Of a stretch of 64,000 bases of DNA, positions 42,401 through 64,000 are shown piece after piece. The notes beneath the pieces were generated by a model. That model had not been told where the DNA came from. It saw only the letters and a program-made list of their open reading frames with translations, and searched no databases. How positions within the stretch are numbered: position 1 is the first letter of the stretch; each line of letters starts with the position of its first letter. The translations under genes and the position numbers were made by a program. Source of the DNA: Daphnia pulex (Eukaryota; Arthropoda; Branchiopoda; Diplostraca; Daphniidae); NCBI RefSeq assembly GCF_021134715.1, contig NC_060017.1, positions 1,488,001 to 1,552,000 on the forward strand. The letters are read 5' to 3'.

Positions 42401-45272
42401 CGCTAGTCGTCTTTACTGACGCTTTCGTTGTCCGTCGTCCGGATGCTTGTAACATTACCCTGGGCTTTTTGGCCTGTATGTCCGGATCGTGTTACCGATC
42501 CGAGCGCCGCTGCGACGGCCAGTACGATTGCGATGACAGATCCGACGAAGCTGGATGCCCGTCCAACACTCGCCGGGAGTTGGCCCAGTATCGCCTCAAG
42601 AGGATCAACCGTCTGCTTCGCATGTACGAGAACTCTTGGCTGTGGAAGGACATCAACATTGGCCCCCACGGCCATTCCATCTTCAGCGTCCAGATCCCTG
42701 AAATCCCCACCCACTGGGTCGTTTCGGCCTTTTCCGTCAGCCCCAAAAACGGATTCGGTCTCGTCCGATCTTCCCGCGAATTCGCCGGTTACCGCCCGTT
42801 CTACATGAACGTTGAAATGCCGACCAATTGCCGGCAAGGTGAGCAAGTGGGCATCCGGATTACTCTCTTCAATTACGCCACCATCGAAGCGGACGTGGTG
42901 GTGACGCTGGCCGACTCGCCCGACTACAAGTTCGTTCACGTCGAAGAGTTTGGTGAAGTTAAATCTTACGAGGCCCGGACATCTCGCGGAGAAAAGCAAC
43001 ATCTGACCTGGATTCCGGCCCAGGGATCTCAAGTCGTGTACATCCCCATTGTCCCGACCAAGCTGGGCGAGATCGAGGTGACGATCCAAGCCAAATCGTT
43101 GATTCGCAAGGATCAAGTCGTCCGTCGCATCCGAGTGGAGGCCGACGGTGTTCCGCAATTCCGCCACACTTCCGTCATGCTGGACTTGAGTAACCGCGCC
43201 TGGTTCTTGCAGTACGTGTACGTCAACGTGACTGAGACGCCCATCATTCCGTACGAGAAGGATCGTTACTACGTTTTCGGTTCCAACCGAGCCAGGGTTT
43301 CGGTGGTCGGTGACGTTGTCGGCCCGGCTTTCCCCAACATGCCCGTCAACGCCACGTCGCTGTTGACTCTGCCGATGGATTGCGCCGAGCAGAACATGTT
43401 CAGTTTCGCCGCCAATCTCTACACCGTCAAGTACATGCGCCTGACAACACAAAGGAAACGGGAAATTGATCGACAGGTAGGATGATGATGAATGATTCAG
43501 CAGGCCTTTTAGTTGTACTACTTACGTAATTTGTTTGGTTGATGACGTCAATTGTTTTCGTTAACAGGCCTTTTACCACCTCAATATCGGCTATCAACGT
43601 CAGCTGTCGTTCCAGCACAGAGACGGGGCCTTTTCCTATTTCCGAGCCGATTGGGATTATTCGTCAAAGTCGGTTTGGCTGACGGCCTTCTGCGCCCGCA
43701 TTCTGGCCGAAGCCAATTTCAACGAATGGGAGAATTACTTATACATCGATCCTGGGGTCATCGCAAAGGCCGTTGACTGGATGATTCAATTTCAGTCACC
43801 CGAAGGGGCGTTCTACGAAGTGGCGCCCCGTTTTGCCGATCGCAAAATGAACAGCACGACGTCGTGGGGCTTCAACGATCCCATTCGCTATCGCAACATT
43901 TCGCTGACGGCACATGTCGTCATCGCCCTGACAACAATTCGTGACTTGCCTGGCGAACTGGGCCCCAGAGTGGCCGTTTCCCGTTCTCGCGCCATCTCCT
44001 GGCTCGATCGCAATCTCAACTTGCTGGAAAAGTTTGGCGATCCCTACGAAGTGGCCATCGTCGCTTACGCCATGATGTTGGCCAAGAGTACGTCAGCCGA
44101 GGCGGCCTTTGGCCTTTTGCAACAAAAAGCCCGTGAGGACGGCGGATTCAAATATTGGGGTAGAGAGCCTGTTCCTCTTCCTGCTCAGAGACTTGAAAAT
44201 CAACGCCCTTTCCTCCTTCCTCGATTGCCTAATGCCTTTGACGCGGCCAACGTCGAAACCACGGCCTATGCCTTGCTGACATATGTTGGCCGTCAGGAGC
44301 TTTTCGTCGAACCCATCGTCAAATGGATCAACACCCAAAGGTTGACGGATGGCGGCTGGGCTTCTACGCAAGACACTATCATCGCCACTCAGGTATAGCT
44401 ACAGTTTCCTGATTAAATTAAATAAGTAGATTATTTAAAAAAATACTATTACAAATTTGAAATAGGCCTTGATCGAGTACACTGTGCGCCACCGAATTCG
44501 TGAGGTGACATCGTTGACTCTTCACGTGGAGGCGACGTCCAATCCGCAATTGCAGCGGACCATGTACATCACGGAAAACAATTTGGCGACGCCGCAGTTT
44601 ATGGACATACCCAACGCCTGGGGCACGGTGAAAATCCAGGCTCGCGGAGCCGGTTACGCCATTGCCCAGCTCTCGTTGCAGTACAACGTGGATGTCAACC
44701 GCTTCGTGACACCTCCGGCTGTGAGGGCTTTCTCTGTCGTGCCCCGTTTAAGTTTTTCGGGTCGCAACAATTCTCACATCAATTATGACATTTGCTCGAG
44801 CTGGACCAACCAGCGAGAGTCGAATCAGTCTGGAATGGCCGTGCTGGACGTTGCCGTCCCTACTGGCTATTATATGCAACAGCAGGTGCTGGATGAGTAC
44901 ATTCTGTCTAGGAAAGTGCGCAATCTCCGACGGGCCAAATTCCTTGATCACAAAGTTGTTTTCTATTTCGACGCCCTGGACGGCGATGACACTTGCGTGA
45001 AATTTACGTTCGAGCGCTGGCACCCCGTTGCCAACATGACCCGCTACTTGCCCGTCCGCGTCTACGACTACTACGCTCCCGAACGCTTCAACGAAACAGT
45101 CGTGCAGACCTATGAGCTCTACGTGATGGACATTTGTCAGGTTTGCGGGAGCTATCAGTGCACCTATTGCCCTACTTACAATCACGCCACTAGGGGGTTA
45201 ATGACATCATCGCTCACGATGATTGCCGCCCTACTAATCTCTCTTGTCTTTACGGCCATCTATCAAAGATGA
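39405..45272 (+). CDS. Mcr: Mcr-like macroglobulin complement-related protein (TEP family, LDLa insert)
   Basis: Secreted or membrane-tethered alpha-2-macroglobulin-fold protein; the Drosophila homologue acts at septate junctions and as an opsonin. Eleven exons: 39405-39646, 39723-39903, 40016-40184, 40316-40428, 40533-40937, 41018-41242, 41330-41713, 41785-42159, 42226-43476, 43568-44392, 44466-45272; 1658 residues. A signal peptide (about 1-22) precedes a Gln-rich stretch, MG domains, an LDLa module at about 770-810 (CYRSERRCDGQYDCDDRSDE), the alpha-2-macroglobulin/TED region and the receptor-binding domain. The LDLa insert is diagnostic of Mcr. The thioester motif reads PMDCAEQNM: Cys and Gln are kept, both flanking Gly are replaced. 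A hydrophobic C-terminus (about the last 25 residues) suggests a membrane or GPI anchor. Confidence 0.93.
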
Positions 45273-46097
45273 ACGAATTTTTCCTCCTTCTTTTAACGAG
45301 ATTATCCGTGAAAATTTTTTAATTGGATCGAATCTTCAACAAACCCCCAACCCCCCTTCCAATGTATCTCTTTTGACGATCTTGAAGATGTTTGCCAGTT
45401 GAATGATATGATGCCGTCCATACTTTTGTGTCTAGATTTTTTTCACAATGTATATCAAACTTGATGCAATGCGCCCTTCTTTCATTTTTATTTTATTTTA
45501 TTATTTTTTTTACATAACAAATGTATTCGTGCCATTGTAGTTACTATCATGGCGATGAAAATTTGCGAGCAGTGTGTAGAGGCTTGTCACCTCTGATGAC
45601 CATTTCTTTTCAATCACTTCCCTCATTCTATAACCTCTTTCAGAACAAAAAAGGATTCACTTTTTTATTACCGGCGTCCTGTTTTTAATTTTTAGCAAAT
45701 AGCGAAATACAGTTTTTGTGACTTTGAGAGAGATCCTTTGTTGGTGTTCGCGCTGAGTCATTTCAATTTATTTTTGTTTTTTGTTGTTTTGTTGTTTTTC
45801 CAACCTCCCCGTGCTGGCATTGCTTGGGCTTCGTGCGCAGTGTGGTACATGCGTCTTTCTGGCGTTGGCCTTTTCCTTGCTAAATAATTGGGGAGTCGAC
45901 AATTGGATTTTCTCTCGGCTGTTCACGTGGACATCCACCAGGCAGGCAAGCTGTTTTTACAAACTTCAGTTGTCTTGAAACTGCTCAACGAGCTTGTACT
46001 ATTCAAAACTGGCGTCGCTAGGTAAGATATTCTTTTCTTTTCCATCTCTTTGCTGTTTGAAAAAGTAAAGTATTTATTTGCTGTTGTTAAACATTAG
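45273..46097. other. Mcr 3' UTR and start region of the CUB/LDLa gene
   Basis: 0.8 kb holding the Mcr 3' UTR and, somewhere, the first exon of the next gene. A donor (gctag|gtaaga, after 46021) could join to the acceptor at 46096-46097, but that frame meets a TGA before any ATG, so the true start exon remains unidentified. Confidence 0.35.
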
Positions 46098-49000
46098 GCT
46101 TATTGCTGCTACTATGGACGGTATGCCAATGCACAAATGCCCGGTCCATGGGGCCGGAACCGGGGACTCTCACCAATGTCATGTTGCATGATATCTGCAC
46201 TCAGAATCCTTATGGACCGAAGCGTTTCTTCTTTGACCAGGGAGAAAATGGCACCCTCATCGCCAAGAATCTCGACTACGATCGCATGGTCGCCATCACA
46301 TCTAAAAGCTATTACTCGACTTTCTACGACCAACAGCAGCAAGCCATGTCCGGTGGCAACAGTCGAGTCTGCTCCGTCGAATTGACAACTTGTCCCGCTT
46401 GTTCGATTCAGGTTCACTTGAAAATCCTCAATCTTCCCGCCTGCGAAATCAGCCCCAACGTCACAAGCGCCAACCGATGCAGGTAATTTATTATCGTTTG
46501 TTTATTGGCTATTGCGTAGGTTGCCATTCGCAGGAAACAAAGGCGCAAGATAACGGTACGAAATTGATTACAATCTCGGAAACCTATCCAAAGACGATGC
46601 ATTCCCTTTCTCTGTGTGTAGCACCGAATCCTATTAGGGTGTTACGTAAATGCCACAGTTGACGCAAGCATCTTGCAGCGTTAGTACGGCTTCAATCCCG
46701 ACATTCATTTCTTTTTTCTCCTTTACACAGCGGATGCGATCATTTAGTTATCAAGGAGAACTTTTATTCGACTCCGCGTCTCATTTGTGGCAAGTCTGCC
46801 AGGACTGTGCACGACCCACGCACGCAGGAAAACTACCGTTCGGTCGGCCGTACATTGACCATTAGTTTCTCATTTAGTCGTAATTACGAATACGCTTTCC
46901 TACTGGAATTCGCCTCTGTTGGTAAGTTTCATTCTGCTATTTTATCAGGATACAGTTGATACATTTTAATATTATTATTTTTTTTTTAAGTAAATACGAG
47001 GACGATTTCAGCGAGAAGTGGCGAAGGCGGATACATCAGTAGTCCTCATTTTCCCGCCGTCTATCCGCAAGATTACAGCAATGAAATCAAATTACAGAAC
47101 CTCGACTTCGTCAACGGCACTACGTCTAACACCGGATGCATCATGCTCATTTTTGACGACTACGCACTCGGATTGTCATCTTTCATCGAGGTATATTGAT
47201 TAGCTTTCTCATTAAGGCCTTTTATCTTAATAATTAACAAGGGGTTGGTCCGATTATAGATAAGTGACAGCAATGAAGTCAGGCAGTATGCCCTTGGAAG
47301 TTCGCTATTCCGCCCACCGGTTGTGTTGATCCAGAGCTACAGAATGGCAATCCGGTTCTTCGCTAATGGCGGAAGAGCTTCTGGCTACCGAGCCTCTTAC
47401 AGATTTATCAACGGTACACTACTTTTAACTTACATTAACTGGAATCTCAATAGTTAATAACATAATTCACTTTTGTAAATCAATAGAATCGGCAGATTTG
47501 ATAGAGATTCCGATTACGGATTGTGGCGGATTAGTGGACGATTTTGGTGGTGTTATTACCATGTATAACATGTCTTCTCCAAACGCAGCAAGGCTTTACG
47601 TAAGAACATTGTTCACGTAATCAAATAAACAGTGTAAATAATCTAAATAAAATTCTAGGATTGCATCTGGCTGATTAAACCGCTGCCCACTTACCAGCAA
47701 AATACGAAATCCCATCTGTTTGTTCGAGTGGAGCAACTCAGCTCTCTTGGTAAATTTATTTTGCCACTTTCTAAATGAATTCTCTACCACTAACAGTTTG
47801 ATACGATAAAATGAAGAACGAGGAACATCACTAGACATCCGCCAAGGATTGATATCGCTGTCTCCATTGATTGAATCCCTGACAACTACAGTCAGTCCAC
47901 AATCCTTAACTTCCGAATACTTGGTTCCGGCGGACGTTGGCTTTTACATCCGACTTCGCGGAAGATTGAACAACGAATTCAAAATGGCCATAGCTTATGC
48001 GGCTTTCAGCTACACTGGTAAAATCGTGTTTTGCGAGTTGTTTTATAACTCGATTCGACAATATGCGTCTCTTTAAATTGAGCAGAATGCTTCGCCATCA
48101 AAGACTTTGTCTGTCTGAATCATCGATGCATTTCAAGTGATTTGCGTTGCGACGGATTCAATCACTGCGGCGACGACAGCGACGAGCAAACATCGTGTAG
48201 CGACAAAGGTTTGCCCTAAAGATTTTATTGATTTCTTCTAGTTATATAATAATTTTCAATTGGAAAGCAGCAATTTCCCCGCAAGACCCTATTTGGTGGA
48301 TGACTCACACTCCAAAGTACTACTTTCCAAAGCTCAACGATTACGGCGACTTTGGCGCCACTTCATTCGTCTTGCTGGTTGCTACATTGGGTACTATTTT
48401 GCACAGACTTTTGCCATTTCTTTTTTCGAATGACATACTTACATTCGATTAGGTGTAGTCCTTTTTATCGCCAGCATTTTGGCTTTGCTCTATCGAATGT
48501 CGTCTCATTCCCAACTGATGCGGGAACGCCAAGCCCGACTGGATTTCATTCGCTCCCAAATAAGTAGGTTAACTGTAAAACGAAATTTTATCTGTAACAA
48601 GGTAGATAACGGTCCTGACCTACTAATTGGACTCACGCAGTCAACAATCCAGATGAACGTGAGGTCGAAATAGAAAACCCGCCAAGCTACGAGGCGCCAC
48701 CTGATTACGCTGAAATAGCGAAAATAGCCCAAATGGAAAAGTAATTTCATACAATTGCGTTCGTTCAGCGGGAAGAAGTATAATATATTTTACCTTTCAG
48801 GGAAAGTGAAATCAGTTACACGAATGGGAGAGTTTTGGTGATTTCGACGCCAACTCCCGGTAACAAGAGACGTAGAGAATTGATGAGGCAATCAAGAAAC
48901 CAGTTGGGATCAGGAGATTTACTGAGTGCTACGCCAACTTCATCAAGATCGTCGACACCTGCTCGCTCACGCAACTCTACTCCTCAACGGAATCGAGTCC

Positions 49001-49536
49001 GTCGTACTCCCGTCCAAATTCTCACTCCTGTCCACATCAACCACCTTCAGGCTATCGATTCCTTCATCCCAAACAGCCCACCTCCTCCTTACGAGATCAA
49101 TCTGGATAGTCCGTTTCACATTGTTCGACTAGTGGAAGACGGCCAAGCAATTCCACCCAATGAGAGCAGTGACGATCCAAATATTGAGGTGGCAACTGAA
49201 ACTCCACTTCCTGTCAAAGAGTCGGACTGCGGTTGCCCAGGAGCCTGTGGATGCGGACCTCCTTCGCTTAATTATTCCATGGACTCGACGGCCCCTCTTC
49301 TTCGATCTCTCTCATTTACATCGATCCATGGTGCGGATTTTGAAGTAGAACAGCCACCACCAGCTCCCATTGAAAACCCATCAGACAAAAATGAAAAAGA
49401 GCAGCTTCCCTATCCCGACGGAAGTTTTAATGAAGCAATTAACCATCGCTTAGCCCGTTCTTTCCTCAGTGTCGATCGCAGCCGTCATCAAGCTCTTGGC
49501 AAGACAAAGAAGATGCCCTGGAATAAGTCGTTTTGA
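46098..49536 (+). CDS. Single-pass membrane protein with CUB-like and LDLa modules and a PPxY tail (5' end unresolved)
   Basis: Exons: 46098-46482, 46731-46921, 47012-47190, 47260-47413, 47487-47599, 47659-47749, 47817-48017, 48086-48208, 48271-48390, 48453-48563, 48641-48740, 48801-49536; about 833 residues visible. The first visible exon opens with a leucine-rich leader (LLLLLWTVCQC), so an upstream exon probably supplies the ATG; an in-frame ATG at 46148 would lose the leader. CUB-like blocks (GYISSPHFPAVYPQDYS; CGGLVDDFGGVITMYN), an LDLa module (CISSDLRCDGFNHCGDDSDE), a transmembrane helix around VVLFIASILALLY, then a ~280-residue tail with PPSY, PPDY and PPPY motifs that could recruit Nedd4-type WW ubiquitin ligases. 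Not assigned to a named family. Same strand as Mcr, which also carries LDLa. Confidence 0.85.
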
Positions 49537-50096
49537 TTCCGTTTTGTTAACATTATCCGAGTAGTTAATGTATTATGATGCATTATGTAAGTCTAATACT
49601 GTATATTATCCAAGTGCAGAAAAACGTTGATTCATTCAATAATAATCACGTATGTATAATTTTTTAATCGATTTTATTGTTGAAAGGTTTCCCTTGTTTT
49701 CTTACTATTTATGCAGAATAATAATACACCTGCTGATTTCGATCGTTTTGTATTTCCACCCTTGAAGTCCAGACTATCTGGTACATCACAAGGTATTTCG
49801 CACTTGTTTTTCTATGTTTGTAAAATATCGCAATGAACATCACATTATACAGTAAAATAAGTTTTAGAATCAAACGGTTATTTCATTTTTCATCTAGTTC
49901 TTACCATAGTAGGCCTAGTAACAAAAGACGCAAATCCGCCAAAAATGTTGAGCTTTTTTAAGCTTTGAATGTTGATTTTTTTGGCTAGAATACATGCGCA
50001 TCAGGCGTAAAAAATTTAATTTGTCGTAATGTAAGAAAAACTACGTTTTATTATCACATTTGATTTAACCCGATTTAACCATCACATTTAAAATCA
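49537..50096. other. Convergent 3' region, CUB/LDLa gene / COQ3 copy a
   Basis: 560 bp of AT-rich sequence between convergent stops; 3' UTRs. No gene seen. Confidence 0.45.
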
Positions 50097-51120
50097 TCAC
50101 ACAGCTTTTGTAGCGTGTAAAGCATAATTGATATCAGTTGATTTTATCCAATCCCAGTTGTTAAGGAATGGATTGTAAGTGTATCCGCGGAGCTGTCGCA
50201 GCTGGCAATTATCTGCAAATTTTCATCAAATTTTAGCAACCATAATGACAGTTATGTTTACTTTGTTAGGACGTATACTTTTATCAAGGATGGAAGTCAT
50301 TTCATCAAGAGTGATAAATTTATTCCAATCATGAGTTCCTCTTGGCACAACGTTCATGATGTATTCTGCACCACATATGACCAGTGCCCAAGATGCAACA
50401 GTTCTGTTTTGTGTTGTAATAAAAAGCGAACCACCTGGCTAGAAAAATAATGGCCGGTTATTAAAAGCCTATTATTTTTAAAAAGCCAGTAAATCAAATA
50501 CTTTGAGGGATTCACTGCATTTTTCGATAAACAATTCCGGATTGTCCACATGCTCAACAACTTCGGATGCAATGACTGCATCGAAGAGAGTCGAATTGCA
50601 TGTTTGGAAATGTTCAATAGTTTTTGCTTCATAGGCTACGTTTCTCAGGTTAATTTTTTTAGCGTGACGATGAGCTTCTTCAATGTTTTCTTCGCTTGGA
50701 TCAATCCCTGTAACCTCGGCGCCTAGACGACCGAGACTCTCAGTCAAAATACCCGCTCCACACCCGACATCGAGTACTTTGAATCCGGCCAAAGGAAATG
50801 CCTGACTAGCGTTCGCAACAGTTGATTTTTGACGAGAACGAATGCCTTGTTCAAAAAACGGCGTCCTGTGAGGGAATAGCGAAAGTTTTTTTAAAACACA
50901 ATTCGAGTTTGCGTTCACGGAAAGAAAATTTATTTTAATTGGCCTACCTTAATTTGTTTAGCGAATGTATCGCTTTGAGTGGTCCGTTTACATCCCACCA
51001 TTCGCTTGCCATTCCACTGAATTTTTGAACCTCGCTTACATTTACTGTGGATTTTGCTGTGGATTTTAGTGAAACGTTTCTAGACAAATGCGGAACTATG
51101 GTTGTTAAACGTTCCAACAT
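50097..51120 (-). CDS. COQ3: Ubiquinone biosynthesis O-methyltransferase COQ3, copy a
   Basis: Mitochondrial SAM-dependent methyltransferase that performs both O-methylations of the coenzyme Q ring. Four exons: 50948-51120, 50502-50865, 50279-50438, 50097-50212; 270 residues, with a short presequence-like N-terminus. Family blocks: KFSGMASEWWDVNGPLKAIH, SAM motif I LDVGCGAGILTESLGRLGA (from about residue 89), GIDPSEENI, the ASEVVEHV block, PGGSLFITT, VPRGTHDWNKFI and the C-terminal GYTYNP / NYALHA. The ATG at 51118-51120 is the first in the exon. The intron phases (2, 0, 1) are identical to copy b. It is head-to-head with HPDL. Confidence 0.93.
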
Positions 51121-51798
51121 TTCTCCTTTTTTAAACTTATGGCTGGGTAAGATTTTCAAAAAAGTACCGATAAAATGCTATGCTGTACGTTTTACGTAAC
51201 AATTGATTATTAAAAACGCTGACAGTTTTTGCGATGAGTGTGACACGTTCTAAGACAGTGAAATAAGGTGTATTCAAGCACAGTTTCAATAACAGACCAG
51301 AACAAAGTCAGTGGTAAAACGCGATTAACGCTAGTTGTTTTTCAACTCTTTCCATTTCAACTTTGGTAAAGCTGTGGCCTAGTTAACTCTATTTAAAAAA
51401 AGTTGAAGTAAAAGTTTCTTTAGATTTCACCGTAAGAGAGCCTGTTAAAGGACACTTGTTTCGAAAGTAGTCGGTTATGAAGATTTACGCAACGGACCAG
51501 TCTTGCAAATCCAATCCGAATCCAATCCGAAACACAACGTCGGGTCCTTTTGTTACCACATGTGAAGTGAATGAAATTTAACCGAAAAAAAAAAACTTTC
51601 TATAAACTTAAAATCAAAAAACCATATTTTGTCACCGCCGTACCTGCTAAACTTGTTTAAAACATGCTCTTTGCAAAGAAACAATCACAATCACGTTGAG
51701 AATTTTCAATAGACACGAACCATCAGTTTGAGCTTGTTGATTCTTCAAGAGTCTCTCTTTTTTCTTTAGACCATTAATACAATTCTGATTTGAATCGA
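51121..51798. promoter_or_regulatory. Shared divergent promoter region COQ3a / HPDL
   Basis: 678 bp between opposed start codons of two coenzyme Q pathway genes. No open frame. A single bidirectional control region is plausible and would coordinate head-group synthesis with methylation (inference); no element was identified with confidence. Confidence 0.4.
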
Positions 51799-53213
51799 AT
51801 GCATCTAAGCGCATTACACCATGTCGAGCTGTGTGTGGCTAACGGAAAAAAGATCGCTTCGTATTTCACTGAGAAACTCGGATATTCTCTCAGAGCACAA
51901 AGAGATACTGTACTAAGCAAACAGTGGGTGGTTGGAAGTCAGAAATCTACATTCGTCGTCACGGAAAAGAAGACAAAATTTCAACAGGAACATGTGCCAT
52001 TTTCTTACTTCTCTGCGCCTCTTCGCCAAGTCGACTCTGTATTTAATGTGGCTTTGGAGGTGAAAAATTTGGAATCTGTAACTGAAAGAATGCAAAATGT
52101 AGGAGGAAAACTATTTCACCCGGTAACAGAAGTAGAAGACCAGAGTGGAAAAGTGAGATATTCAATTGTCAGTTCCTGTTGCGGCAATATAGTGCATACT
52201 CTTTTGGACAAGTCACAGTACAAAGGATCGTTTCTGCCCACTTTCGATGAATCATTTACAACCCGTGGTGAAGAGAAAATAACCCACATAGATCATCTAA
52301 CTTATGTTTGCCATCCCGGAGAATCACCGGGCATCATTCAGTGGTATCAAAGTTGTTTGGGGATGCAAAAATTTAAAACCAACCCAACAGAGGATCTTAC
52401 AGAAGGCTTAGTGATCAAAGATGGAGTTGGTATGAGGCTACGAGTTATGGACTATTGGCCTTGTGCCGAGTCTGGCATTTGTAATTCCGATCCCAGCAAT
52501 GGCATGGACGAAACGTCGTTGAAAATTGTCATCGCAGAGTCCCTTCCAGGAATAGGTAAATTTTATAAACCTTTTTTTTTTATTATTATTCTCACGAATA
52601 ATACCGAACACGTGATTTCTAGAAAATTTGCACATAAATGCTTTCCTTGACGGTCATGGAGGACCAGGACTTCAACACATCGGTCTTAGCACCCTTGACA
52701 TCACCAGCTGCGTGGATAGCATGAGCCGCAAAAAGGTTTCATTCCGAACACCACCTGCAGCCTATTATCGTAACGTACGTAATGTCCGTTTTTAAAAAGA
52801 ATTTTGCTCACACATTCTTTAATGGAATTTGTTAAACCTTAAATGAAACCCAGAAATGGAAAAGAAATGAAATAGAAGCGGCAGGCTACGACATTAACAA
52901 ATTCGAGCAATTGGGAATTCTCATTGACTCCGAAGCGGATACAAATGCTAAAGACAATCAAGACAAGTGAGATTTTGTGTTATATTTAACTGCTTCATTA
53001 TAAACTGACCTTTCGTGTCGTTTTGTCATTTTGAACAGGTTTCTGCTGCAGATTTTTACACTTAATTTATTCAAGGAAGAAACTTTTTTTCTAGAACTGG
53101 TTCAAAGAAAAGGAGCTCGTGGGTTTGGAGCCGGCAACGTAACGGCACTAGCACGTTCAATAGAGGAAGAACGGCAGGTCTTAAAAAATCCAAATGCCGT
53201 CTGTAATTTATAA
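51799..53213 (+). CDS. HPDL: HPDL, 4-hydroxyphenylpyruvate dioxygenase-like (4-hydroxymandelate synthase)
   Basis: Mitochondrial non-heme Fe(II) dioxygenase; human HPDL makes 4-hydroxymandelate, a precursor of the coenzyme Q head group. Four exons: 51799-52555, 52623-52774, 52854-52966, 53039-53213; 398 residues (human 371). The iron triad is visible: His166 ([13 protein letters not shown]), His271 ([10 protein letters not shown]) and Glu360 ([18 protein letters not shown]). It is HPDL and not the tyrosine-catabolic HPD because of [11 protein letters not shown], the [14 protein letters not shown] block, IAESLPG and FLELVQRKG, all HPDL-specific. It lacks the HPD C-terminal tail. It sits between COQ3a and COQ10, which supports the CoQ role. 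Confidence 0.93.
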
Positions 53214-54137
53214 TACATAACAAAAATTAATTGATGCGTATGTAAGCGATGTAAGGGAGATTGTCTAAAATAATAATAATTGAAGATATCAAAGCTTCCA
53301 AACCAAATACATGGTCCGAACTATTCAGAGATTTCTAATGTGCACTGGTATCCTATTATACAACAGAAATAACTTTACACTTGTACTTTGTACTCGGCTT
53401 AAAATTGCATTCGATCATTGCAATTTAATTACTGCCACAAGGCATTATATTTGAAAAATTGGCGACATGCGAAATGGCACGTGTGACTGAAAATCATGCT
53501 TGAAAACGATTGTGTTTGTATTTTTTTTGTGTACGCCTTCAGTCCGGATTATCGGGGCTTTGTTATTACCAAAAACAATTAACTTAACAAAAAAAAATAA
53601 TAATTAATAATAATAAGATACGTCTAGCCGGTGGGGTGACCCAAATAACATCAGAGAAAGTTGTTTGGTCACATTTAAGAAAAAAAAACTTATTTACTTA
53701 CTTATTAAACTCGCCTTTATTAGAATAAAATATTTATCGTGTTATTCCGATAGGCAAAATTTAATATTCAACATGAATTTCTAAAGGTACTGAAAGTAGG
53801 CTGCTTTAACGATAGATTTCAGACTAGTTATACGTAAGATAAGTTGTGCTAACTTTAAGTCGTGATTCGTAAACGCACAGCACCGCGTTACATTAATCAT
53901 GGTCATGATGTTTCGTCAGACCAAAGGTTTCTGACCCGTATAACAGGTTGCTAGTAGAACCAAAACGAAAAGAGAGAAAGAGAGAATTGGAAAGCAGCAG
54001 TTTTAGTCTTTCTCGGTCTTTCTTTATTAACTAGTCTCCAATGTTTTACTTAAACTGCTCGTGTATCGCTGTTACTCACTTCATAGTTGTTAAAAATTTG
54101 ATTTTAACTAGTTTGTGGTAGAAAAACGTTCGCAACC
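53214..54137. other. Spacer HPDL / COQ10
   Basis: 0.92 kb with the HPDL 3' UTR and the COQ10 promoter. AT-rich; no reading frame or repeat stands out. Confidence 0.4.
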
Positions 54138-55027
54138 ATGATTTCGCTATCAGTTAATAGAATGGCAAGGTTTCCTTTGCTGTCTTTTACTGCCACAATA
54201 GGAAACCCTGTTAGGTTTCATGCTCCGACTGGAACGTATTCAGTTGGTTTCTCAAAGTACAACCCTTTCTTAAGACATACCATTAAGACACGCGTGCCAT
54301 TTTTAATCTCTTTTTACTTTTTACACAGGGAATTAATTCGTCATCGGTGTAACTGGACACAAGCGGGCAATCGTGGAACTATTCTATCTCAAAAGTCAAG
54401 AGCAATTCAACCTCTTCCATTCATAGTTATCTCACAACGTAACTTTAAGTTATCCGGGGGACTGAGAAATGATAGAAAAGATTTTTCTGAAAGGAAAATT
54501 CTCGGGTATTGGATAAAAATACATTTAAAAAATAAATAACATTGCTGTAGACAGAATCTCTTTAACGTGATTTTTACAGGTACTCGATGGAGAGACTTTT
54601 TAATATAGTGGCTGAGGTTGAGCAATATAAACATTTTGTTCCATATTGCATGAATTCAGTAGTCACTTCCCGAACTTCAGCAGAACGATTTACAGCTGAT
54701 TTAACAATAGGCTTTCCACCGTTGGTGGAAAACTATACAGCTAGCTTCATGCTAACATCACCAACATTAGTGAAATCCGTTTACATACAGGGAAATCTGT
54801 TTAATCATCTGGAAACAATATGGAAATTCAGTCCTGGACCTAACGGAGATCCTAAAAGTTGTACCTTTGATTTCTACATGTCCTTTGAATTCCGTTCTTT
54901 ACTGCATACTCAACTATCACAATTGTTTTTTGATAAAGTTGTGAATAAAATAACTGATGCGTTTACAGAAGAAGCAAAAAGGCGTTACGGACCACCGTCC
55001 ATAACTAACCAGCGATCGTATGTATGA
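54138..55027 (+). CDS. COQ10: Coenzyme Q-binding protein COQ10 (START fold)
   Basis: Mitochondrial lipid-binding protein that delivers coenzyme Q to its sites of synthesis and respiratory use. Three exons: 54138-54256, 54329-54505, 54580-55027; 247 residues (human COQ10A 247). The basic N-terminus looks like a presequence. Core blocks: FSERKILGYSMERLFNIVAEV, YKHFVPYCMNS, GFPPLVENYTA, GNLFNHLETIWKFSPGP, and FEFRSLLHTQLSQLFFDKVV. The 72-bp intron 1 has a strong T-rich acceptor but is in frame and stop-free, so its retention would only add 24 residues; the choice is inferred. Confidence 0.92.
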
Positions 55028-55531
55028 ATAAACTGATTTTCCTTCGTCAAAAGTCTCAAAACCCAGTTTGTTCTTAAACTTCCAGTCGACTTGACAGCCT
55101 TATTACAACAATTCTATCATAACGACAAAATTTTACATTTTATGTTGAAAAAAACGTTTTGTTTAAAGAATTTACGTTTATTTTTGTCTTACCTTGATTA
55201 TCAGTATGTGTGATATCTTGATAATTGATTGAAGCTGAACAAGTTTCACAAAGATTTCCGTCGACAACTTGTAAATAGGGACCAATATCTGTAGGCTTAT
55301 GTAAAATTTCTTTGATCCGGTGATGTTAGCTGCATAAAAAACAATTAAACGCTAAAACAGTTGGCAACAATTTTGAAAAACAATTACGCATAGCGGAATC
55401 GAAATTCTATTAACATTTTCATCAATACTTTTATTACACATTGTCGAAGTATTCAACCCGATTTATCGCAACAACATAAAAAAGGAGAATAGATTTGTCT
55501 CATTCTCGAACATTTGTCTCTATAGAAAAAT
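55028..55531. other. Convergent 3' region COQ10 / COQ3 copy b
   Basis: 504 bp between convergent stop codons, AT-rich, consistent with two 3' UTRs. Confidence 0.45.
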
Positions 55532-56606
55532 TCAATTCAGATTTTGTATCACATCATCTGTTACTACCTGAGACGATTTTGTAGCGTGTACAGCATAGTT
55601 GACGCTGGTGGTTCTTGACCATTTCCATTTGTTCATAAAAGGGTTGTAAGCCATGCCACATATTTGTCGAAGCTGGCATCCACCTAAAGTATGCAGTAGA
55701 ATATATATAAAACACATATTTCAGAACATGTTTCATGGTAATTCAAAACATACTGCTATTAATGTAGTCTATTAGTTCATCAGGAGTGATAAACTTATTC
55801 CAATCATGTGTTCCTCTTGGTACAACATTGAGAATATATTCTGCACCACAAATGGCAAGGGCCCAAGAAGCAGGAGTCTTATTTAAAGTTGTTATGAATA
55901 AAGAACCTCCTGGCTAGAAAAGTATGTCAGTTATGAAAGTCTGTTCTGGTAGTTGTACAAAAAATTAAATACTTTGAGTAATTCAGTGCATGTTTGGATG
56001 AAAAATTTTGGATTTTCTACATGCTCAATGACTTCAGATGCAACAACTGCATCAAAGGTGGTTGACAAACTAGTGTTTAATGCTTGAAAATGTTCAATGG
56101 TATTGACTTCAAAGGTCACATTCTGAAGCCTCATTTTATTAGCATGAAGAGAGGCTGCTGCAATATTTTCTTCACTTGGATCAATTCCTGTAACACTTGC
56201 TCCCAAACGGCCCAGACTTGTGCTCAAAATTCCACCACCACATCCTACATCCAATATGCTACATCCTGCCAATGGACTTGTCGGAGAATTGTTAACAACA
56301 GCTGATTTTTGATGAGAGCATATTCCATTTCGGATGAATGGAACTCTAGGAAGAAAAATCATTAGGTTTGAAAAATAAAGTGCAAAACATATGTTGTAAG
56401 TGGGGCTCACTACAACATAGATATGGTTACCTTAGTTTATTTAAAGAGTGTAACCCACTGAATGGTCCATTAACATCCCACCATTCCTTTGCCATTTTAC
56501 TGAATTTCTGGATTTCATTTTCACTCAGCGTTGATTTGATTGAATAGTTTCTTACAGACGACAGGCCTCGGACTGGGAGAGAAGTAACACAATGCTTCAG
56601 CAACAT
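55532..56606 (-). CDS. COQ3: Ubiquinone biosynthesis O-methyltransferase COQ3, copy b
   Basis: Second COQ3 gene in the same orientation as copy a, with the two intervening genes on the other strand. Four exons: 56431-56606, 55973-56345, 55754-55913, 55532-55683; 286 residues. SAM motif I reads ILDVGCGGGILSTSLGRL, followed by GIDPSEENI, ASEVIEHVENP, PGGSLFITT and VPRGTHDWNKFITP. Intron positions and phases equal copy a, but the proteins differ at many positions and the C-terminus is longer here (ends VIQNLN), so the duplication is old and both copies have been kept under selection. Whether they divide the two methylation steps or tissues is unknown. Confidence 0.93.
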
Positions 56607-58493
56607 TGTAGCTGTGAATCCTGTGATTGTAGTTTCAACTTTCAAATGCTCGTCTCAGGATTTCGATTTCTGTTGTGACTCGATGTGTCTGCTATCCTGT
56701 GTCTAATGTTGTGCAAACGACAGTGATGCCATTTCGTTGCAAAGAACCACAAGTGGTTCTTTCCGCGAAAGTTTTCGCGGAAAAGTTTTTTTATTTGTTT
56801 TGTAGTTATGTTGTTTTTGTATATTTTCGATTTTTGAAAATAAAATAATTTAGTTCTGTTTATTTTTTGAGTGGTAGTTTACTCAGCACTCAATCAGTCA
56901 ACTAGCCGAAAACAACAGCGGCAAAAAAAAATTTCGTGCCTTAAAAAAAGTCTTTAGATTTCCCGAAATCATAGCTTACAGCTAAAAATGAACATTCGCC
57001 GACTCAACCGCCGTCAAGTGGAATCGTTTTTCTCTCTCAATGTTTGTTCTCGTGCTCAATTGAATTTCAGTCCATTTAAATGTAATTGCTCTTTTGTTAG
57101 CTTATCAAAAAATGTTACATTATCTTAACTATCGGTTGATCTGCGTCGTTGCGGACGGATATTCACACAGAGCGAAATCAAATATAAAAGAGAACATTCA
57201 CTTTGAAATCGGTGCTGGGCTGACGGAACGAGCTAGAAGAGCCTCTTATGGCTTGTATAGTTTTTCTTTCCCAGTGGAGATTGAATTTGGCACGAGATGA
57301 CTAGGAATGAGGTCAACAAAGATCCGGTTGACTGGTCCAATAAGTACCTACAAAGTGAAAGTGGTTAATCAAATTAGTACTGACAAGAAATCGTAGTCTT
57401 TCCTAAGTGTAACTTTATATCTCTAGTAAATAATTAACACGCAAAGGAATTAAGGAAATCGGACACAAAATCGTAAAAGTAAACGACCATTTGACGACAA
57501 AGAACAAGTAAATTCAAAAGTTTTGGCTCGATGCGCTAAAAGATAACGACTAGAAGACATTTTTATTTTTAAAAAATGTTGGATGGTCAAACAGATTTTC
57601 ATTTTTTTTTCAATAATTTTCAATAAGCAATTTGAAAAATCCATGAAAATTTTTGTATGTTGTGACTTGTTTGTCTTTGAAAGTCACTTAACAGCTTTCC
57701 ATGCCTCCACGGCAACGTAGTCATGGAAAGCTTCGTTCACTTGCGGAAAATAAATCAAGTTTTTAGTGGTTTCTCAGGTCCTATTCCGCTTTTAAGAAAC
57801 GGAATGTCACAATGCCAGTAAACAATCTTTGTTTTTAAATTTCCGTAATATCTTGAAGCTGGACTCACTTGAACGAATAGAAATCCCCCGCTTTCGATTT
57901 CTCTATTGAAATGCAAAGTAATATTCAAGTCTGTATCTACGGAGTAATATTTGGTACTTTCGCTTATTAGACACTCAATCATGAAAAATGACTTTCTCAT
58001 TAGAACTTGATTTTTTACAGTGACCCAGAACATTTTCTGAAATGATCACAAGTTGAAGGACTCCGTGACACAGAACTTTGTTTATTTAGGAAACACTAGC
58101 TGATGAAGGTATAATAACTACGAAATTCATCACATGACAACCGGTCTAGATGCGATTGTCTGTGCATTGCTTATGACTCAGACAACTACTATAAATGATG
58201 TTTGTCATTGAGTATTGCCGATAACTGACTAGTAGGGATATCTACGGAAATTTTACTTTCGCTTGGACTTTCAACGTGGCTTTCTCATTGAAACTTGATT
58301 TCTATTGCCATGCCCCAGAAAAATGTAGATTTGCCTTACGGATTTGTCAGCGACTTTCAGTCACATCCATAGTGGGTTAAGGATAGGAAATAAAAGCAAG
58401 TAAAAACTCCAGATTCCAACTAATCACAAAACAGCGGTACACTGGAATTGAGCTCGTTTGGATGGTGGTGTCCATCATTTTTTTACTTGTCGA
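56607..58493. other. Intergenic region COQ3 copy b / FAR
   Basis: 1.9 kb with the promoters of two divergent genes. Contains a 92-codon ATG-initiated minus-strand frame (57755-58033) that matches no family I know, and a degenerate direct repeat sharing a gactttctcatt-type core at about 57985 and 58280. Not enough to call a gene. Confidence 0.4.
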
Positions 58494-60518
58494 ATGTCAG
58501 AAAATACAAATATGGAGCAATTAAGTATACCCGAATTTTACAAAGGCCGATCCGTGTTCATCACCGGCGCAACGGGTTTTATGGGCAAGGTGTTAGTGGA
58601 GAAGCTTTTACGATCCTGCCCCGAAGTTGATCGAATTTACTTGTTGATGAGACCATCAAAGGGCCAAAGTGTCGAGTGTCGTCTTGAGGATCTAATCAAC
58701 AATCAGGTACGGATTTTAAATTCTTATTTTATACGAATTGTCACAAAAGTGATTTTTTTTTACAGATATTCGACGGGGTCAGGAAACAAGAGCCAAATGC
58801 ATTGACGAAAATTGTAGCCGTGACAGGCGATGTGACCCTGCCCGGATACGGGTTATCGGCATTCGACTTGAATCTATTGATTGAAAATGTTTCTATCGTC
58901 TTCAACTCTGCCGCTACCATTAAATTCAACGAAGAACTCAAAGATGCCATCGAGATGAACGTCAAAGGTCCTATGCAGTTACTAGAAATTTGCCGACAGA
59001 TGAAACGCCTTGTGGTAGCATCTCATAATTAACAGAGTTTTATAACGCCAATATACGTTTTAATTAACTCTTACAGGCTTTTGTTCACGTATCGACGGCT
59101 TTTAACAATCTCGACCGAGAAGAAATGAAAGAACAGGTTTACCATTCGAAAGTTGATCCCGTCAAATTGATTCAATTGCTTGACTGCCTTGACGACAACG
59201 CAGTGAAAAAGATCGCACCACAGTAAGAGCTTTATTAAAATGTTCTTGCAAGCGAAACCAATTTAATCTTTTACTACCATTTACTGTCAAGACTTTTGGG
59301 AAATTCCCCCAACACATATACCTACACAAAAGCATTGGCCGAGCAACTTCTCGAGGAACAATGCGGAAGCGTTCCATTGGCAATTGTAAGACCCTCAATA
59401 GTTACTGCAGCCCTCAAAGAACCCGTTCCCGGTTGGGTTGACAATTTCAACGGGGCAACAGGTGAAAATTATTGATTGGCACACACGAGTATCATTTTAT
59501 TGAGACAGCCTTTATTGTCTTATAGGAACGATCGCTGCGGTCGGGAAGGGATTTTTCCGTGTCATGAAAATCAACGCAGATCTAGTCGCAGACATAATTC
59601 CTGTTGATTACCCTATCAATTTAATGATTTCCGTGGCTTGGCACTTAGCCACTCGCAGGTATAACAATCAAATATTTTTTCGAAATAAAATCCCGACAGC
59701 TACATGGTGACCAATGATTGACGTGGAATTTTCTGTTAGACCAAACGAAGTACCGGTTTACAGCTGTACAACTGGTCATCGAAACCCTTTAACTTGGGGT
59801 GGTCTGAAACGTTGTACCTTGCAGTCTTGGTTGAAATTCCCTGCCCAAGATATGATGTGGTACCCTAGCGCCCTTTACACAATTAACGACGCTTGGTACA
59901 AAATGAACGAAGTTTTGTTCCATACCATTCCGGCACACTTGTTCGACTTGTTTTATTCTATGACGGGCAAACGCACTCGATGGGTACGATCCAATTAATT
60001 ATCAACAAATTTCCCGAGAGAAAATTCCTTATGTCTTTCGTGATTGCTAATAGGTCCGAATGTATGCCAAAGCAACTCTAGCATTTTCTACATTGGAGTT
60101 TTTTACGACGCATCAATGGAGATTCCTTAGTAATAACCCGATTCGTTTGTTGGAGGAAATGTCCAACCAAGACAAGAAAACTTTCTATTTTGATGTCCGC
60201 GAAATTGAATGGAAAAGCTACTTCGATGTTTTCATACAGGGAGCTCGGCGGTTCGTTCTTAAAGACGACCCAAGCACTCTGCCCCTCGCAAGACGCAACC
60301 TTAGCAGGTATAGTTGTAAATTCATAAAAACAAGAACCAGCGATTATTATTTTTAATCGTGGCGTTGGCCAATTTGCAGGCTGTACGTGGCACGGATGTT
60401 TCTGCGTCTACTTTTTTTCTTCGGTTTATTCACTGTATTGTGGCGCTCTTTTAGACCATTTTTACTACCTGTAACTGCAGTGTTCTTCTTAACAGAGTTT
60501 TTATCTGATAAGTCTTAA
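58494..60518 (+). CDS. Fatty acyl-CoA reductase (FAR family)
   Basis: NADPH-dependent reductase turning fatty acyl-CoA into fatty alcohol for waxes, ether lipids or cuticular lipids. Eight exons: 58494-58706, 58766-59014, 59077-59222, 59292-59461, 59526-59658, 59740-59983, 60054-60307, 60380-60518; 515 residues, the usual length. The Rossmann motif is TGATGFMGK (24-32), the active site is YTYTK (Tyr212, Lys216), and the substrate-specificity block is [21 protein letters not shown]. The C-terminal FAR_C domain ends in a hydrophobic segment ([12 protein letters not shown]), suggesting an ER or peroxisomal membrane anchor. Start MSENTN is the first in-frame ATG. Arthropods have many paralogues, so no symbol is given. 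Confidence 0.92.
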
Positions 60519-61348
60519 GCAAAGACAACGACGAATCAAACCTGAAGAGGTAAATCAGCCGGTTGTTTTACTTATCCTTACAACACGTAAAAATAGCATT
60601 CCTCTTTCATTTCTCCTCGTCGTCGTACGTAACCGTTTCCCTTGATTTTAAATAGTTAAATTGCGCTTTATAGTATTTAGCATGTTCAGCGAAGATGCCA
60701 AATGTTGTTGAGTATAGATTCAGCATTTTAAATCACCTAAGTTACAAGCCCTAGGATAAGGCTATCTAATATCTGTAAGTTTTATGTAGAACTTAAAAAT
60801 CATTCCTTTTTCAAAATACCTTCATTTTAGACATTTTGGCTAGTATTGCGCCATTGAATTTTGCATTAAACGTGTTCAAAAGGTTTTTGAGGAACGTTTT
60901 ACAGCTAACAAGTAATTAAAAGTCGTTCATGTAAACAATTTAATTCAACAAAATTAATTTCAACATTAGCCTTTGAAGATAATTCAACCGATAACGGAAA
61001 GATTTCTGTGAAATAAAATGTTCAAACCCCTCAAAGAAAAAAGACAAAATATCCTGTAAATTTCCGAGTTCGTCTTCCGAGATATGCGTCATCTAATCGT
61101 TGCTTGTATTGCGCAAACGCAATCATTACTGTGTAGTACTCATTAATGCATTGATATGATTTCTTGAGATTTTATTTTGTAAAAGAATATACGTATAATT
61201 GCCACCATCCCCAGAAAAGTTGCTCAAAAATAGTTCCCTTTCTTTGTTTGCTACAAAAACGTCTAATTTTATGTTAAAATGTTGATTGTAGAAAATATGC
61301 GATTTGTATAACAAATTATTACATATAATAAACATAATATATTGACGA
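60519..61348. other. FAR 3' UTR and intergenic
   Basis: 0.83 kb, AT-rich, no gene or repeat recognised before the direct repeat begins. Confidence 0.4.
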
Positions 61349-61633
61349 ATTGTAGCCTACATGTTGATTAGCAGACAAAGCAGCCCCACGAAAGGACTAA
61401 GGTTAAATCTTCACCAACTCGAAACCGAAAATTGAAAAATTTCTGATTAGCGTTAAATTAAATTGATTAGGAGTTAATTTTTTTAAATTGATTTATTTCT
61501 TTTGATAGGAATATGATATGATTTATTTTTCTTAAGGGATTGTAACTTTAGAGCTGTGAAAAGTGTCGAGTAGGTGGTACGTCGTTATTTGGAACGTGTC
61601 AAAACGAATGACCGGATCTTTGTTACATTAGTT
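61349..61633. repeat. Direct repeat, unit 1
   Basis: About 285 bp starting attgtagcctacatgttgat and ending at the ttacattagtt block. It matches unit 2 with roughly 90 percent identity by eye, with a short insertion (cgtcgttat region) absent from unit 2. No coding frame or terminal repeats. Confidence 0.9.
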
Positions 61634-61718
61634 ACTAGATGCCCTGGCTAAACCTGCGCGGCTAAGGTTGCAAAAAATATATCTTTTCTTTTCTCAATAT
61701 CTTTTAGCTTAATTTCTA

Positions 61719-61995
61719 ATTGTAGCCTACATGTTGATTAGCAGACACAGCAGCCCCACGAAAGGACTAAGGTTAAATCTTCATCAACTTGAAACTAAAA
61801 ATTGAAAAATTTCTGATTAGCGGTAAATTAAATGGATTAGGAGTTAATTTGTTGATATTGATTTATTTCTTTTGATAGGAATATGATATGATTTATTTTT
61901 CTTAAGGGATTGTAACTTTAGAGCTGTGAAAAGTGTCGAGTAGGTGGTAGTTGGAACGTGCCAAAACGAATGACCGGATCTTTGTTACATTAGTT
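61719..61995. repeat. Direct repeat, unit 2
   Basis: Second copy of the ~0.28-kb unit, offset by about 370 bp. It ends just before the Na,K-ATPase pseudogene fragments, so it may mark the edge of the rearranged segment. Confidence 0.9.
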
Positions 61996-62049
61996 CACTT
62001 GACTCCCCACAAACATTTGCAGTTATTACGCTTGCCGCTGCCACTAGTC

Positions 62050-62079
62050 CACGACCACCACGTTATCGTGGTGGTCGTG
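62050..62079. repeat. Perfect 13-bp hairpin at the rearrangement edge
   Basis: CACGACCACCACG (62050-62062), four-base loop TTAT, then its exact reverse complement (62067-62079). It abuts the point where homology to the Na,K-ATPase first exon begins, and resembles that exon's own gacgaccac. Confidence 0.9.
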
Positions 62080-62911
62080 AAAATCCCGATTGCTGAACTT
62101 TACAGACGACTTAATGTCAATCCGGAAACTGTAAGCATAAAAAAGTCCTTAACCCCTGTTTTATTTTCTAATTAGAAACCAAATTTTTAAAAACTGTTAT
62201 TAATACGATTGTTTTATTTGACGATTAGGGTTTGACGTCTGCGCAGGCCAAGGCCAACTTGGAGCGCGATGGGCATAATTGCCTCACCACTCACCAGTCC
62301 TCCCCAAACGACGCCGGAATGGATAAAATTTTGCAAGCAGCTCTTTTGTGGCTTCTCCATGCTCTTGTGGGTTGGTGCCATCCTCTGTAATGTCGCCTAC
62401 GCCATTGAATACAGCCAGAACCCCGACATCCTAGGAGACAACGTGAGTCTTACAAACCAGACCATTTAAAATGATAAGCTATATTATTTCTATTCTGAAT
62501 TTCTTTTTTTTTTTTGGTCTTGCAGTTGTAACTCGGCATTGTATTGGCGACCGTCGTCGTCGTTACCGGATGCTTCTCTTATTATCAGGAGAGTAAGAGT
62601 TCCAAGATTATGGAATCCTTCAAGAATTTGGTTCCCCATTCGGCCTTTGTCATCCGTGATGGCCAAAAACAGACAGTCAAAGCCGAGGAAGTCTGCCGCG
62701 GTGATACCGTTGAAGTCAAATTCGGCGATCGTATTCCGGCAGATATTCTTGTCATTGAGGCTCGCCAATTCAAAGTTTACAACTCTTCATTGACGGTAGA
62801 ATCCGAGCCTCAGAGCCGATCTCCCAAATTCACTTACGACAACCCGTTAGAAACCAAGAAATTGGCTTTCTTCTCCACCGACGCCGTCGAAGGTGCTAAA
62901 AATTACTGTCT
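62080..62911 (+). pseudogene. Na,K-ATPase alpha-subunit pseudogene, plus-strand part
   Basis: Three exon remnants of the ion pump's catalytic subunit. 62080-62130 encodes KIPIAELYRRLNVNPET with a donor. 62229-62442 encodes [15 protein letters not shown] then [15 protein letters not shown] and the first transmembrane helix, but a duplicated ACTCACC shifts the frame. 62526-62911 encodes the second helix and actuator region ([29 protein letters not shown]), with a TAA four bases after the exon start (L*LG for LYLG) and SSLTVESEP in place of SSLTGESEP. It ends at VEGA, far short of the phosphorylation site. Not functional. Confidence 0.85.
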
Positions 62912-63420
62912 CACGTTGTCTCCTAGGATCTGGCTGGTCTCCGGGTTCTGGCTGTATTCAATGGCGTAGGCGACATTACAGAGGATGGCACCAACCCACA
63001 AGAGCATGGAGAAGCCACCAAAGAGCTGCTTGCAAAATTTGATCCATTCTGGCGTCGTTTGGGGAGGACTGGTGAGGCAATTATGCCCATCGCGCTCCAA
63101 GATGGCCTTGGCCTACGCAGACGTCAAACCCTAATCGTCAAATAAAACAATCGTAAATTAATAACAGTTTTTAAAAATTTGGTTTCTATTTAGAAAATAA
63201 AACAGGGGTTAAGGACTTTTTTATGCTTACAGTTTCCGGATTGATATTAAGTCGTCTGTAAAGTTCAGCAATCGGGATTTTGTGGTCGTCAATCTCCAAC
63301 TCTTGCTTCAAATTGTATAGATCCTCGGATCTCCCAACAGTGACGACAACAACGGTCGTCAAAACAAAACCAATTAACTCTCTTTTTCTTCACTTCAATA
63401 ACGAGAATAAACTTGATTGG
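62912..63420 (-). pseudogene. Na,K-ATPase alpha-subunit pseudogene, inverted part
   Basis: Inverted copy of the first two exon remnants. Exon b (62915-63130) encodes [18 protein letters not shown] and the first helix without the frameshift of the plus copy, but has TAG in place of a Gln codon near its start (TSA*AKA). Exon a (from 63231 to about 63340) reads NLKQELEIDDHKIPIAEL, the cytosolic N-terminal region. Upstream of that the frame runs into a VLTTVVVVTVG stretch resembling the second helix, so the segment is further shuffled. Both arms are therefore dead. Confidence 0.8.
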
Positions 63421-63502
63421 TATCGATTTTAAACGTCAAATGTTTATTGTTAATGTGACATCAGTAACGGTCGTTTATTATTATATCCAGTATATAAGAT
63501 GA

Positions 63503-63517
63503 TGTGTGTGTGTGTGT
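63503..63517. repeat. (TG)n microsatellite
   Basis: Seven TG units, in a region that looks like a minus-strand 3' UTR. Confidence 0.8.
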
Positions 63518-63901
63518 ATGTGAATCGAGTTACAAAACTCATGGAACCGTCTAGACTCGGCTCGTCGTAACACTCGTGGATTGAAGATGATATCTTGAGG
63601 CGTCGCACATCGTATGTATAGAGATTACAGAGTTGGTGCGGGGAATAATAGTTAACAAAACTAAATAGATTCATCATACACATGACGTTGAGATGCTAGA
63701 AAAAGGAGGGCAGAAGTTCGCATGGCACTAAATAATTAAAATAGAGAAACATGGCATCCAACAATCGAAAAAAGCCGTCAAAAAAAGGGATTGAATGGAA
63801 ACTGCAATCAGCACTTGATTCGCGAATGAGAAATGAGCCAAATAATAAAAATCCAAAATGAGGTCTGGCTTGGTAGAAGATTAAAAAAAAAAGAAATCGA
63901 A

Positions 63902-63961
63902 TCAATTTGTAAGCACTCTTAAAATGTCTTCATAAAGAAACCGAGTTCTCTTAGCTTTGAT
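63902..63961 (-). CDS. Possible terminal coding exon of a gene beyond the right edge
   Basis: On the minus strand an acceptor (ttttcag) is followed by a 20-codon frame reading IKAKRTRFLYEDILRVLTN and a stop. Downstream (63420-63900) is AT-rich with AATAAA-type signals on the minus strand (63446-63441), like a 3' UTR. I do not recognise the peptide, and the reading frame entering the exon is unknown. Confidence 0.3.
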   Translation of the reverse strand: MKAKRTRFLYEDILRVLTN

Positions 63962-64000
63962 CTGAAAACAAATGAATACAATTCGAAAGCTAACTTCTAG

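Follow-up and report, generated by a model that had tools for sequence, protein, structure and literature searches.

Metabolic clusters of unrelated genes are known from fungi and plants, and little is understood about those of animals. One animal gene pair of relevance here is GPAT/AIRC, which we take to be PPAT/PAICS. In chicken these two genes of de novo purine synthesis are arranged divergently and, according to the title of the study, their promoter was analyzed experimentally (cited in PMC2871058). Genes that act in the same metabolic pathway reportedly have a tendency to be clustered (PMC2871058), and in yeast the DAL (allantoin) cluster arose through the relocation of genes (Wong and Wolfe, 2005, cited in PMC7826186, PMC3847288 and PMC2871058). 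Biosynthetic gene bundles in animals include oro in sponges and the GAMT bundle in vertebrates (PMC12833800). In this study, four adjacent genes for coenzyme Q (CoQ), which carries electrons in mitochondria, were analyzed in a window of 64,000 nucleotides from Daphnia pulex (contig NC_060017.1, C1:1488001-1552000). With moderate confidence, these genes, COQ3a, HPDL, COQ10 and COQ3b, are regarded as a derived CoQ metabolic cluster that came together around COQ3 through duplication and relocation. Locus coordinates refer to this 64-kb window, while C1, C2 and so on designate the contigs of the assembly that was searched (133.19 Mb, 13 contigs). The locus contains the following features.

51120 to 50097, minus strand: COQ3a; exons 51120-50948, 50865-50502, 50438-50279 and 50212-50097; 270 amino acids

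51121 to 51798, no strand: divergent (head-to-head) intergenic region between COQ3a and HPDL; 678 bases; candidate shared promoter region

51799 to 53213, plus strand: HPDL, clustered copy (HPDL1); exons 51799-52555, 52623-52774, 52854-52966 and 53039-53213; 398 amino acids

54138 to 55027, plus strand: COQ10, clustered copy; exons 54138-54235, 54329-54505 and 54580-55027; 240 amino acids

56606 to 55532, minus strand: COQ3b; exons 56606-56431, 56345-55973, 55913-55754 and 55683-55532; 286 amino acids

The gene models were rebuilt exon by exon. All 11 introns were of the GT-AG type and no internal stops were present. The initial annotation, which was made from the sequence of the window, had described four adjacent intact genes at 50097-56606 without an unrelated gene between them, and both statements are borne out. 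The models splice cleanly and keep their family signatures, and the coding-region gaps of 678, 924 and 504 bases hold no ATG frame longer than 55 amino acids. The longest ATG frames touching the first two gaps were 55 and 47 amino acids, none of at least 40 amino acids touched the third, and no recognisable gene was found among the ATG frames in these gaps. The positions given earlier, including the intergenic region 51121-51798, were correct to the base. The strand pattern (minus, plus, plus, minus) and the size of the gaps differ from those of an operon, whose genes share one strand and are closely spaced. As in a metabolic cluster, at least three non-homologous genes of one pathway are adjacent beyond chance.

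Compared with the systems described above, the CoQ locus may work like a small relocated cluster. It resembles the DAL cluster in that formerly scattered genes of one pathway appear to have been brought together. However, the DAL cluster is fungal and nutrient-related, whereas three of about 13 CoQ families are together here and unclustered copies remain. The likeness to GPAT/AIRC would lie in a divergent promoter between two enzyme genes of one pathway in an animal, which is possible for COQ3a/HPDL. The GPAT/AIRC promoter was studied by experiment, while the 678 bases of the CoQ locus are a candidate promoter region and are accompanied by a third family and a tandem copy. In the oro bundle, too, animal genes of primary metabolism are gathered in one region without horizontal transfer, but this bundle makes a specialised alkaloid and is present in all producing sponges examined (PMC12833800). 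Most animal bundles are interspersed with other genes (PMC12833800), in contrast to the CoQ cluster, which is compact and appears to serve the usual CoQ chemistry. Among the matches listed from the open-licence literature, no description of a COQ3-HPDL-COQ10 adjacency or of a Daphnia HPDL was found, in agreement with the initial annotation, which knew of no description of the cluster. PMC12327078 is without gene order, PMC7015314 without any of the gene names and PMC4236883 without a statement about co-expanded pathways.

A chance origin of the adjacency is unlikely. In a Monte Carlo analysis, 12 CoQ families, of which three had two copies each, were placed in random order among 15,000 or 18,500 genes. 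The probability of finding three different CoQ families within three consecutive genes was 3.65e-5 (15,000 genes) and 2.1e-5 (18,500 genes), and within four consecutive genes it was 6.6e-5 and 4.3e-5, respectively. These gene numbers are assumed, with the 15,321 genes reported for D. obtusa as a guide (PMC12926508). The doubled families include COQ9 with its broken second copy, and the estimate is therefore slightly generous to chance. A random insertion of one gene would land beside the COQ3/HPDL genes with a probability of about 2.6e-4 (15,321 genes, four gaps assumed).

The window COQ10 matched PF03364 with 62.2 bits (cut-off 23.4) and was 59.3% identical to a second copy on C11, which supports the COQ10 signature reported for it previously. 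Its sole match in the PDB at E<=0.01 was the Caulobacter protein 1T17 (E 1.3e-6), presumably a COQ10 homologue. The only NCBIfam match was the related RatA family, at 48.8 bits and below the 258-bit cut-off. The first intron of the window COQ10 can also be read in frame, so that the N terminus is uncertain. The second COQ10 is located at C11:4647754-4648621. The identity of the two copies was calculated over 216 aligned residues and rises to about 65% over the shared last exon, and their last intron is at the same position. The genome search with PF03364 gave 62.7 bits for the window COQ10 vs 82.8 bits for the C11 copy.

The C11 COQ10 is adjoined tail to tail by SF3B1, an exon of which encodes 95 residues nearly identical to solved SF3B1 (E 1.5e-55). 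Past SF3B1, about 6 kb from this exon, there is a PGAP1 exon (PF07819, 64.4 bits) that also matched glycosylphosphatidylinositol (GPI) inositol-deacylase with E 5e-5. The order in C11:4647754-4655870 is COQ10-SF3B1-PGAP1. The tail-to-tail orientation of COQ10 and SF3B1 is unlike the head-to-head arrangement of human COQ10B and SF3B1. A list of human genes displayed the order PGAP1, ANKRD44, SF3B1, COQ10B, HSPD1, HSPE1 (PMC4919381), and a second one the order ANKRD44, three unnamed transcripts, SF3B1, COQ10B, HSPD1, HSPE1 (PMC6027313). A chicken interval has the same genes in a list that is possibly unordered (PMC11050503). Compared with the vertebrate SF3B1-COQ10B-HSPD1-HSPE1 neighbourhood, the C11 COQ10 has kept the links to SF3B1 and PGAP1. 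However, HSPE1 is near COQ10B in vertebrates, while the sole Cpn10 (HSPE1) match of this genome was on C5. ANKRD44, which stands between PGAP1 and SF3B1 in the human list, was not among the C11 open frames listed, although no search was aimed at it.

COQ10-SF3B1-PGAP1 is apparently an ancient animal gene neighbourhood. Vertebrates and this crustacean-like genome have the link to SF3B1 and PGAP1 in common. COQ10 therefore very probably had its ancestral site on C11, with the window COQ10 as the derived copy that would have joined the cluster secondarily. The gene orders thus argue strongly for the direction of the COQ10 move. Since the apparent ancestral site is preserved in the same genome, the direction in which the cluster was assembled may be read from it.

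Both window COQ3 genes are assigned by their profile matches to the UbiG/COQ3 methyltransferase family. COQ3a scored 275.5 bits and COQ3b 288.7 bits against TIGR01983 (UbiG/COQ3 equivalog, cut-off 102.95), with profile positions 1-227 of 228 covered. COQ3b aligned along E. coli UbiG (4kdc, E 2.4e-54). The two genes, both on the minus strand, encode proteins with 61.9% identity. The whole genome gave eight COQ3 matches at E<=10, and all eight were exons of COQ3a and COQ3b. Ring O-methylation is the role expected of their products.

The window HPDL is, on sequence criteria, an HPDL gene distinct from HPD. It matched TIGR01263 (4HPPD) with 190.8 bits, under the 277-bit equivalog cut-off for HPD proper, and aligned across both domains with solved HPD chains. 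The His-His-Glu iron triad is kept as H166 (codon 52294-52296), H271 (52676-52678) and E360 (53094-53096), so that both the HPDL signature and the active-site residues claimed in the initial annotation are present. H271 and E360 align directly with the HPD iron ligands. At H166 the printed HMMER alignment is gap-shifted, but the spacing from DH to WY is 15 residues in HPDL1, in HPDL2 (see below) and in the genome's own HPD. This separate HPD gene, located on C7, holds the exon that matched 4HPPD best genome-wide; its pieces, introns included, were locally 27-35% identical to HPDL. HPDL has been described as about 35% like HPD with the iron triad kept, and as converting 4-hydroxyphenylpyruvate to 4-hydroxymandelate en route to CoQ10 (PMC13111500). 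No obvious mitochondrial presequence was seen by eye at the HPDL1 N terminus.

A second complete HPDL (HPDL2) is located at C1:7093110-7094570, 5.5 Mb from the cluster. HPDL1 and HPDL2 displayed 76.8% identity over 397 aligned residues and all three introns are at the same sites. The neighbours of HPDL2 are a BTB-domain gene (KCTD9-like by eye), an aminotransferase, a phosphodiesterase-domain gene (PIGO-like by eye) and a leucine-rich-repeat seven-transmembrane (LRR-7TM) gene. None of these could be placed beside HPDL in another animal, so they offer no ancestral anchor. An HPDL-like match at 44183-44311 was rejected as chance: it lies antisense to an A2M/TEP-family gene and reached E 1.7e-4 with an exon of HPDL2 and E 0.30 with the window HPDL. 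Scans for HPDL in viral_contigs and in genome_contigs gave eight pattern matches each, none of which was confirmed.

A retrocopy origin of the window HPDL and COQ10 was ruled out by the HPDL introns and the last COQ10 intron, which are at shared sites. A wider segmental duplication was likewise rejected. The 38 kb surrounding the C11 COQ10 and the 20 kb surrounding HPDL2 were compared with the window extended by 10 kb at either end (E 1e-4 for protein, 1e-3 for DNA), and the COQ10 and HPDL genes were all that was shared. In a search for the flanking repeats of a mobile insertion around the window COQ10, only weak pairs were seen.

All three paralogue pairs are under purifying selection. The synonymous divergence (dS, Nei-Gojobori) was 1.37 for the COQ3 pair, 1.28 for the HPDL pair and 1.48 for the COQ10 pair, and the corresponding ratios of nonsynonymous to synonymous divergence (dN/dS) were 0.21, 0.12 and 0.21. 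At conserved residues, identical codons were found in 83/160 (COQ3), 168/295 (HPDL) and 65/125 (COQ10) cases, compared with 39.5, 38.9 and 37.2% expected for independent codons; the observed values were reached in 5, 0 and 4 of 5000 simulations, respectively. The silent divergence of the pairs is near saturation, yet not saturated. The mean silent divergence between D. pulex and D. obtusa is 0.134 (PMC12926508). The duplications look far older than the split of these two species, although the estimators differ and the age of the adjacency itself is not dated by them. Tajima counts, obtained with very distant bacterial outgroups, were 17 for COQ3a vs 13 for COQ3b over 229 sites (chi2 0.53), and 3 for the window COQ10 vs 5 for the C11 copy over 133 sites (chi2 0.5).

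The pathway survey took in COQ4, COQ5, COQ6, COQ7, COQ9 and UbiA and left out PDSS1, PDSS2 and COQ8. COQ5 (C8), COQ6 (C4) and COQ7 (C1 at 4.15 Mb, 2.6 Mb from the cluster) were found in one place each. COQ4 is on C2. A partial COQ4 match of 36 positions at C7:6894443-6894550 (32.2 bits) is perhaps a gene fragment or due to chance. COQ9 occurs twice on C10 (C10:3302202-3302478 and C10:9923464-9923739, 6.6 Mb apart); the second copy is near-identical to the first and carries two in-frame stops, indicating a decaying copy. UbiA-type matches were detected on C11, on C1 at 7.94 Mb and on C8, none of them in the window, and were not assigned to COQ2. Clustering of the whole pathway is ruled out by the dispersal of the searched CoQ genes over C1, C2, C4, C8 and C10. 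An equally old duplication of the whole pathway is ruled out by the near-identical and broken second COQ9 and by COQ5, COQ6 and COQ7, which are found in single places.

Co-regulation of the cluster is predicted and plausible, with no positive sign of it in the sequence. No repeats of at least 14 bases were found in the 678-base COQ3a/HPDL region. COQ10 has its own upstream region of 924 bases and COQ3b faces the opposite way. The three upstream regions (678, 924 and 1000 bases) have 12 8-mers in common, most of them A-rich, compared with a random mean of 7.2. Among 200 random sets (first-order Markov), the observed sharing was reached in 18 for 8-mers, 20 for 9-mers and 16 for 10-mers.

Upstream of COQ3b, at window positions 56741-56783, there are two imperfect palindromes with about 91% self-complementarity over 22 and 24 bases.

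In the assembly that we favour, COQ3 would have been duplicated in tandem, both copies being at the locus on one strand. Copies of HPDL and COQ10 would have come between the COQ3 genes by duplication and relocation at the DNA level, with their introns retained. The donor of COQ10 would very probably be the SF3B1-COQ10 neighbourhood that is today on C11, while the relocation of HPDL, for which the comparison has no outgroup, is weakly suggested. Each product would do the usual job of its family: HPDL would make 4-hydroxymandelate, COQ3 would O-methylate the ring and COQ10 would carry or present the finished lipid. The cluster may represent a second CoQ set that is co-expressed locally, in addition to the dispersed copies, with one open chromatin domain and the divergent COQ3a/HPDL promoter common to its genes.

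Several observations weigh against such a cluster. The CoQ gene set was picked only after the cluster had been seen and, with about 200 pathways by our own estimate, a similar triplet would occur in about 1% of random genomes. HPDL and COQ10 are intact outside the cluster as well, so that function does not depend on clustering. The cluster genes are on both strands, and the promoter words shared among the three upstream regions are not above chance. For HPDL, either locus may have been the donor. For COQ10, no trace of the C11 flank (SF3B1, PGAP1 or other) was found beside the window copy. The frequency of triplets genome-wide, the shared words, the equally intact unclustered copies and the dispersal of the other searched CoQ genes would also suit a neutral coincidence, in which a tandem COQ3 duplication was followed by two unrelated duplications that dropped HPDL and COQ10 alongside, the neighbourhood being functionless. 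We consider this coincidence possible but doubtful. The probability for the CoQ pathway alone is about 3.7e-5, and old pairs (dS 1.28-1.48 vs 0.134 for D. pulex-D. obtusa) sit together, though their adjacency is undated. That selection assembled the cluster seems unlikely; in this case the HPDL and COQ10 duplicates would have been drawn to the tandem COQ3 pair and kept there as a separately controlled second CoQ set (e.g., one serving hypoxia, eggs or a given tissue), perhaps together with a modified quinone. The CoQ-cluster interpretation of the initial annotation stands as far as it concerns four intact neighbouring genes from three unrelated families that are unlikely to be together by chance. 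Its "selection against separation" is unsupported because unclustered copies persist: an intact second HPDL and COQ10 are far away, and the window COQ10 appears to have joined later.

An origin from an old block is rather improbable. Here a COQ3-HPDL-COQ10 unit would have been duplicated head to tail, and the HPDL and COQ10 of the second unit would have left later. The observed order and strands, with COQ3a and COQ3b in the same orientation, are those expected from a direct tandem duplication, and silent divergence is similar across all three pairs. However, this equal-age argument is weak because dS is near saturation. The C11 COQ10 has SF3B1 and PGAP1 as neighbours, in agreement with the human list, indicating that it never left a COQ3 cluster unless it went back to its ancestral site. 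Right of COQ3b in the window, no remnant of HPDL or COQ10 was detected at a meaningful E; the best match there was one of 29 residues to COQ10 with E 5.8. It is more improbable still that the clustered copies form a module devoted to another quinone or to a methylated phenol, comparable to the primary-metabolism orthologues that sponges have bundled for oroidin (PMC12833800). Three families were duplicated with copies gathered in one place, bundled genes of primary metabolism have a precedent (PMC12833800), and the window COQ10 has a lower PF03364 score than its C11 paralogue. However, no copy was accelerated in the Tajima counts with their very distant outgroups, dN/dS is low, the HPDL iron triad is kept and a UbiA-type prenyltransferase match is absent from the window. 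Moreover, both COQ3 genes are at the locus and at least one of them must serve ordinary CoQ. An assembly artefact joining unrelated loci is hardly credible, since the window contains no N bases, the 133.19-Mb assembly consists of 13 contigs, the intergenic gaps are short and the paralogue pairs are too diverged for collapsed alleles.

If the locus was indeed assembled around COQ3 in this way, it would show a gene cluster in the course of its assembly, of which animals offer few examples, and the unclustered copies provide a built-in control for the effect of clustering on expression. For CoQ biology, it would be a case, open to testing, in which a head-group enzyme, a ring methylase and a lipid-binding partner were duplicated and kept together. 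The cluster is more testable and somewhat less extraordinary than the initial annotation held.

The genes flanking the cluster are unrelated to CoQ. On the left there is the A2M/TEP-family gene and a frame without a Pfam match, and on the right a fatty acyl-CoA reductase-type gene (PF07993). No transfer RNA was detected in the whole 64-kb window, and no Rfam match reached the gathering threshold in 45000-64000. Elsewhere in the window, two frames that are similar by eye are located about 3 kb apart at 14256-14576 and 17153-17686. The latter matches YchF-GTPase_C and, together with the former, suggests a tandem duplicate of an OLA1-like gene.

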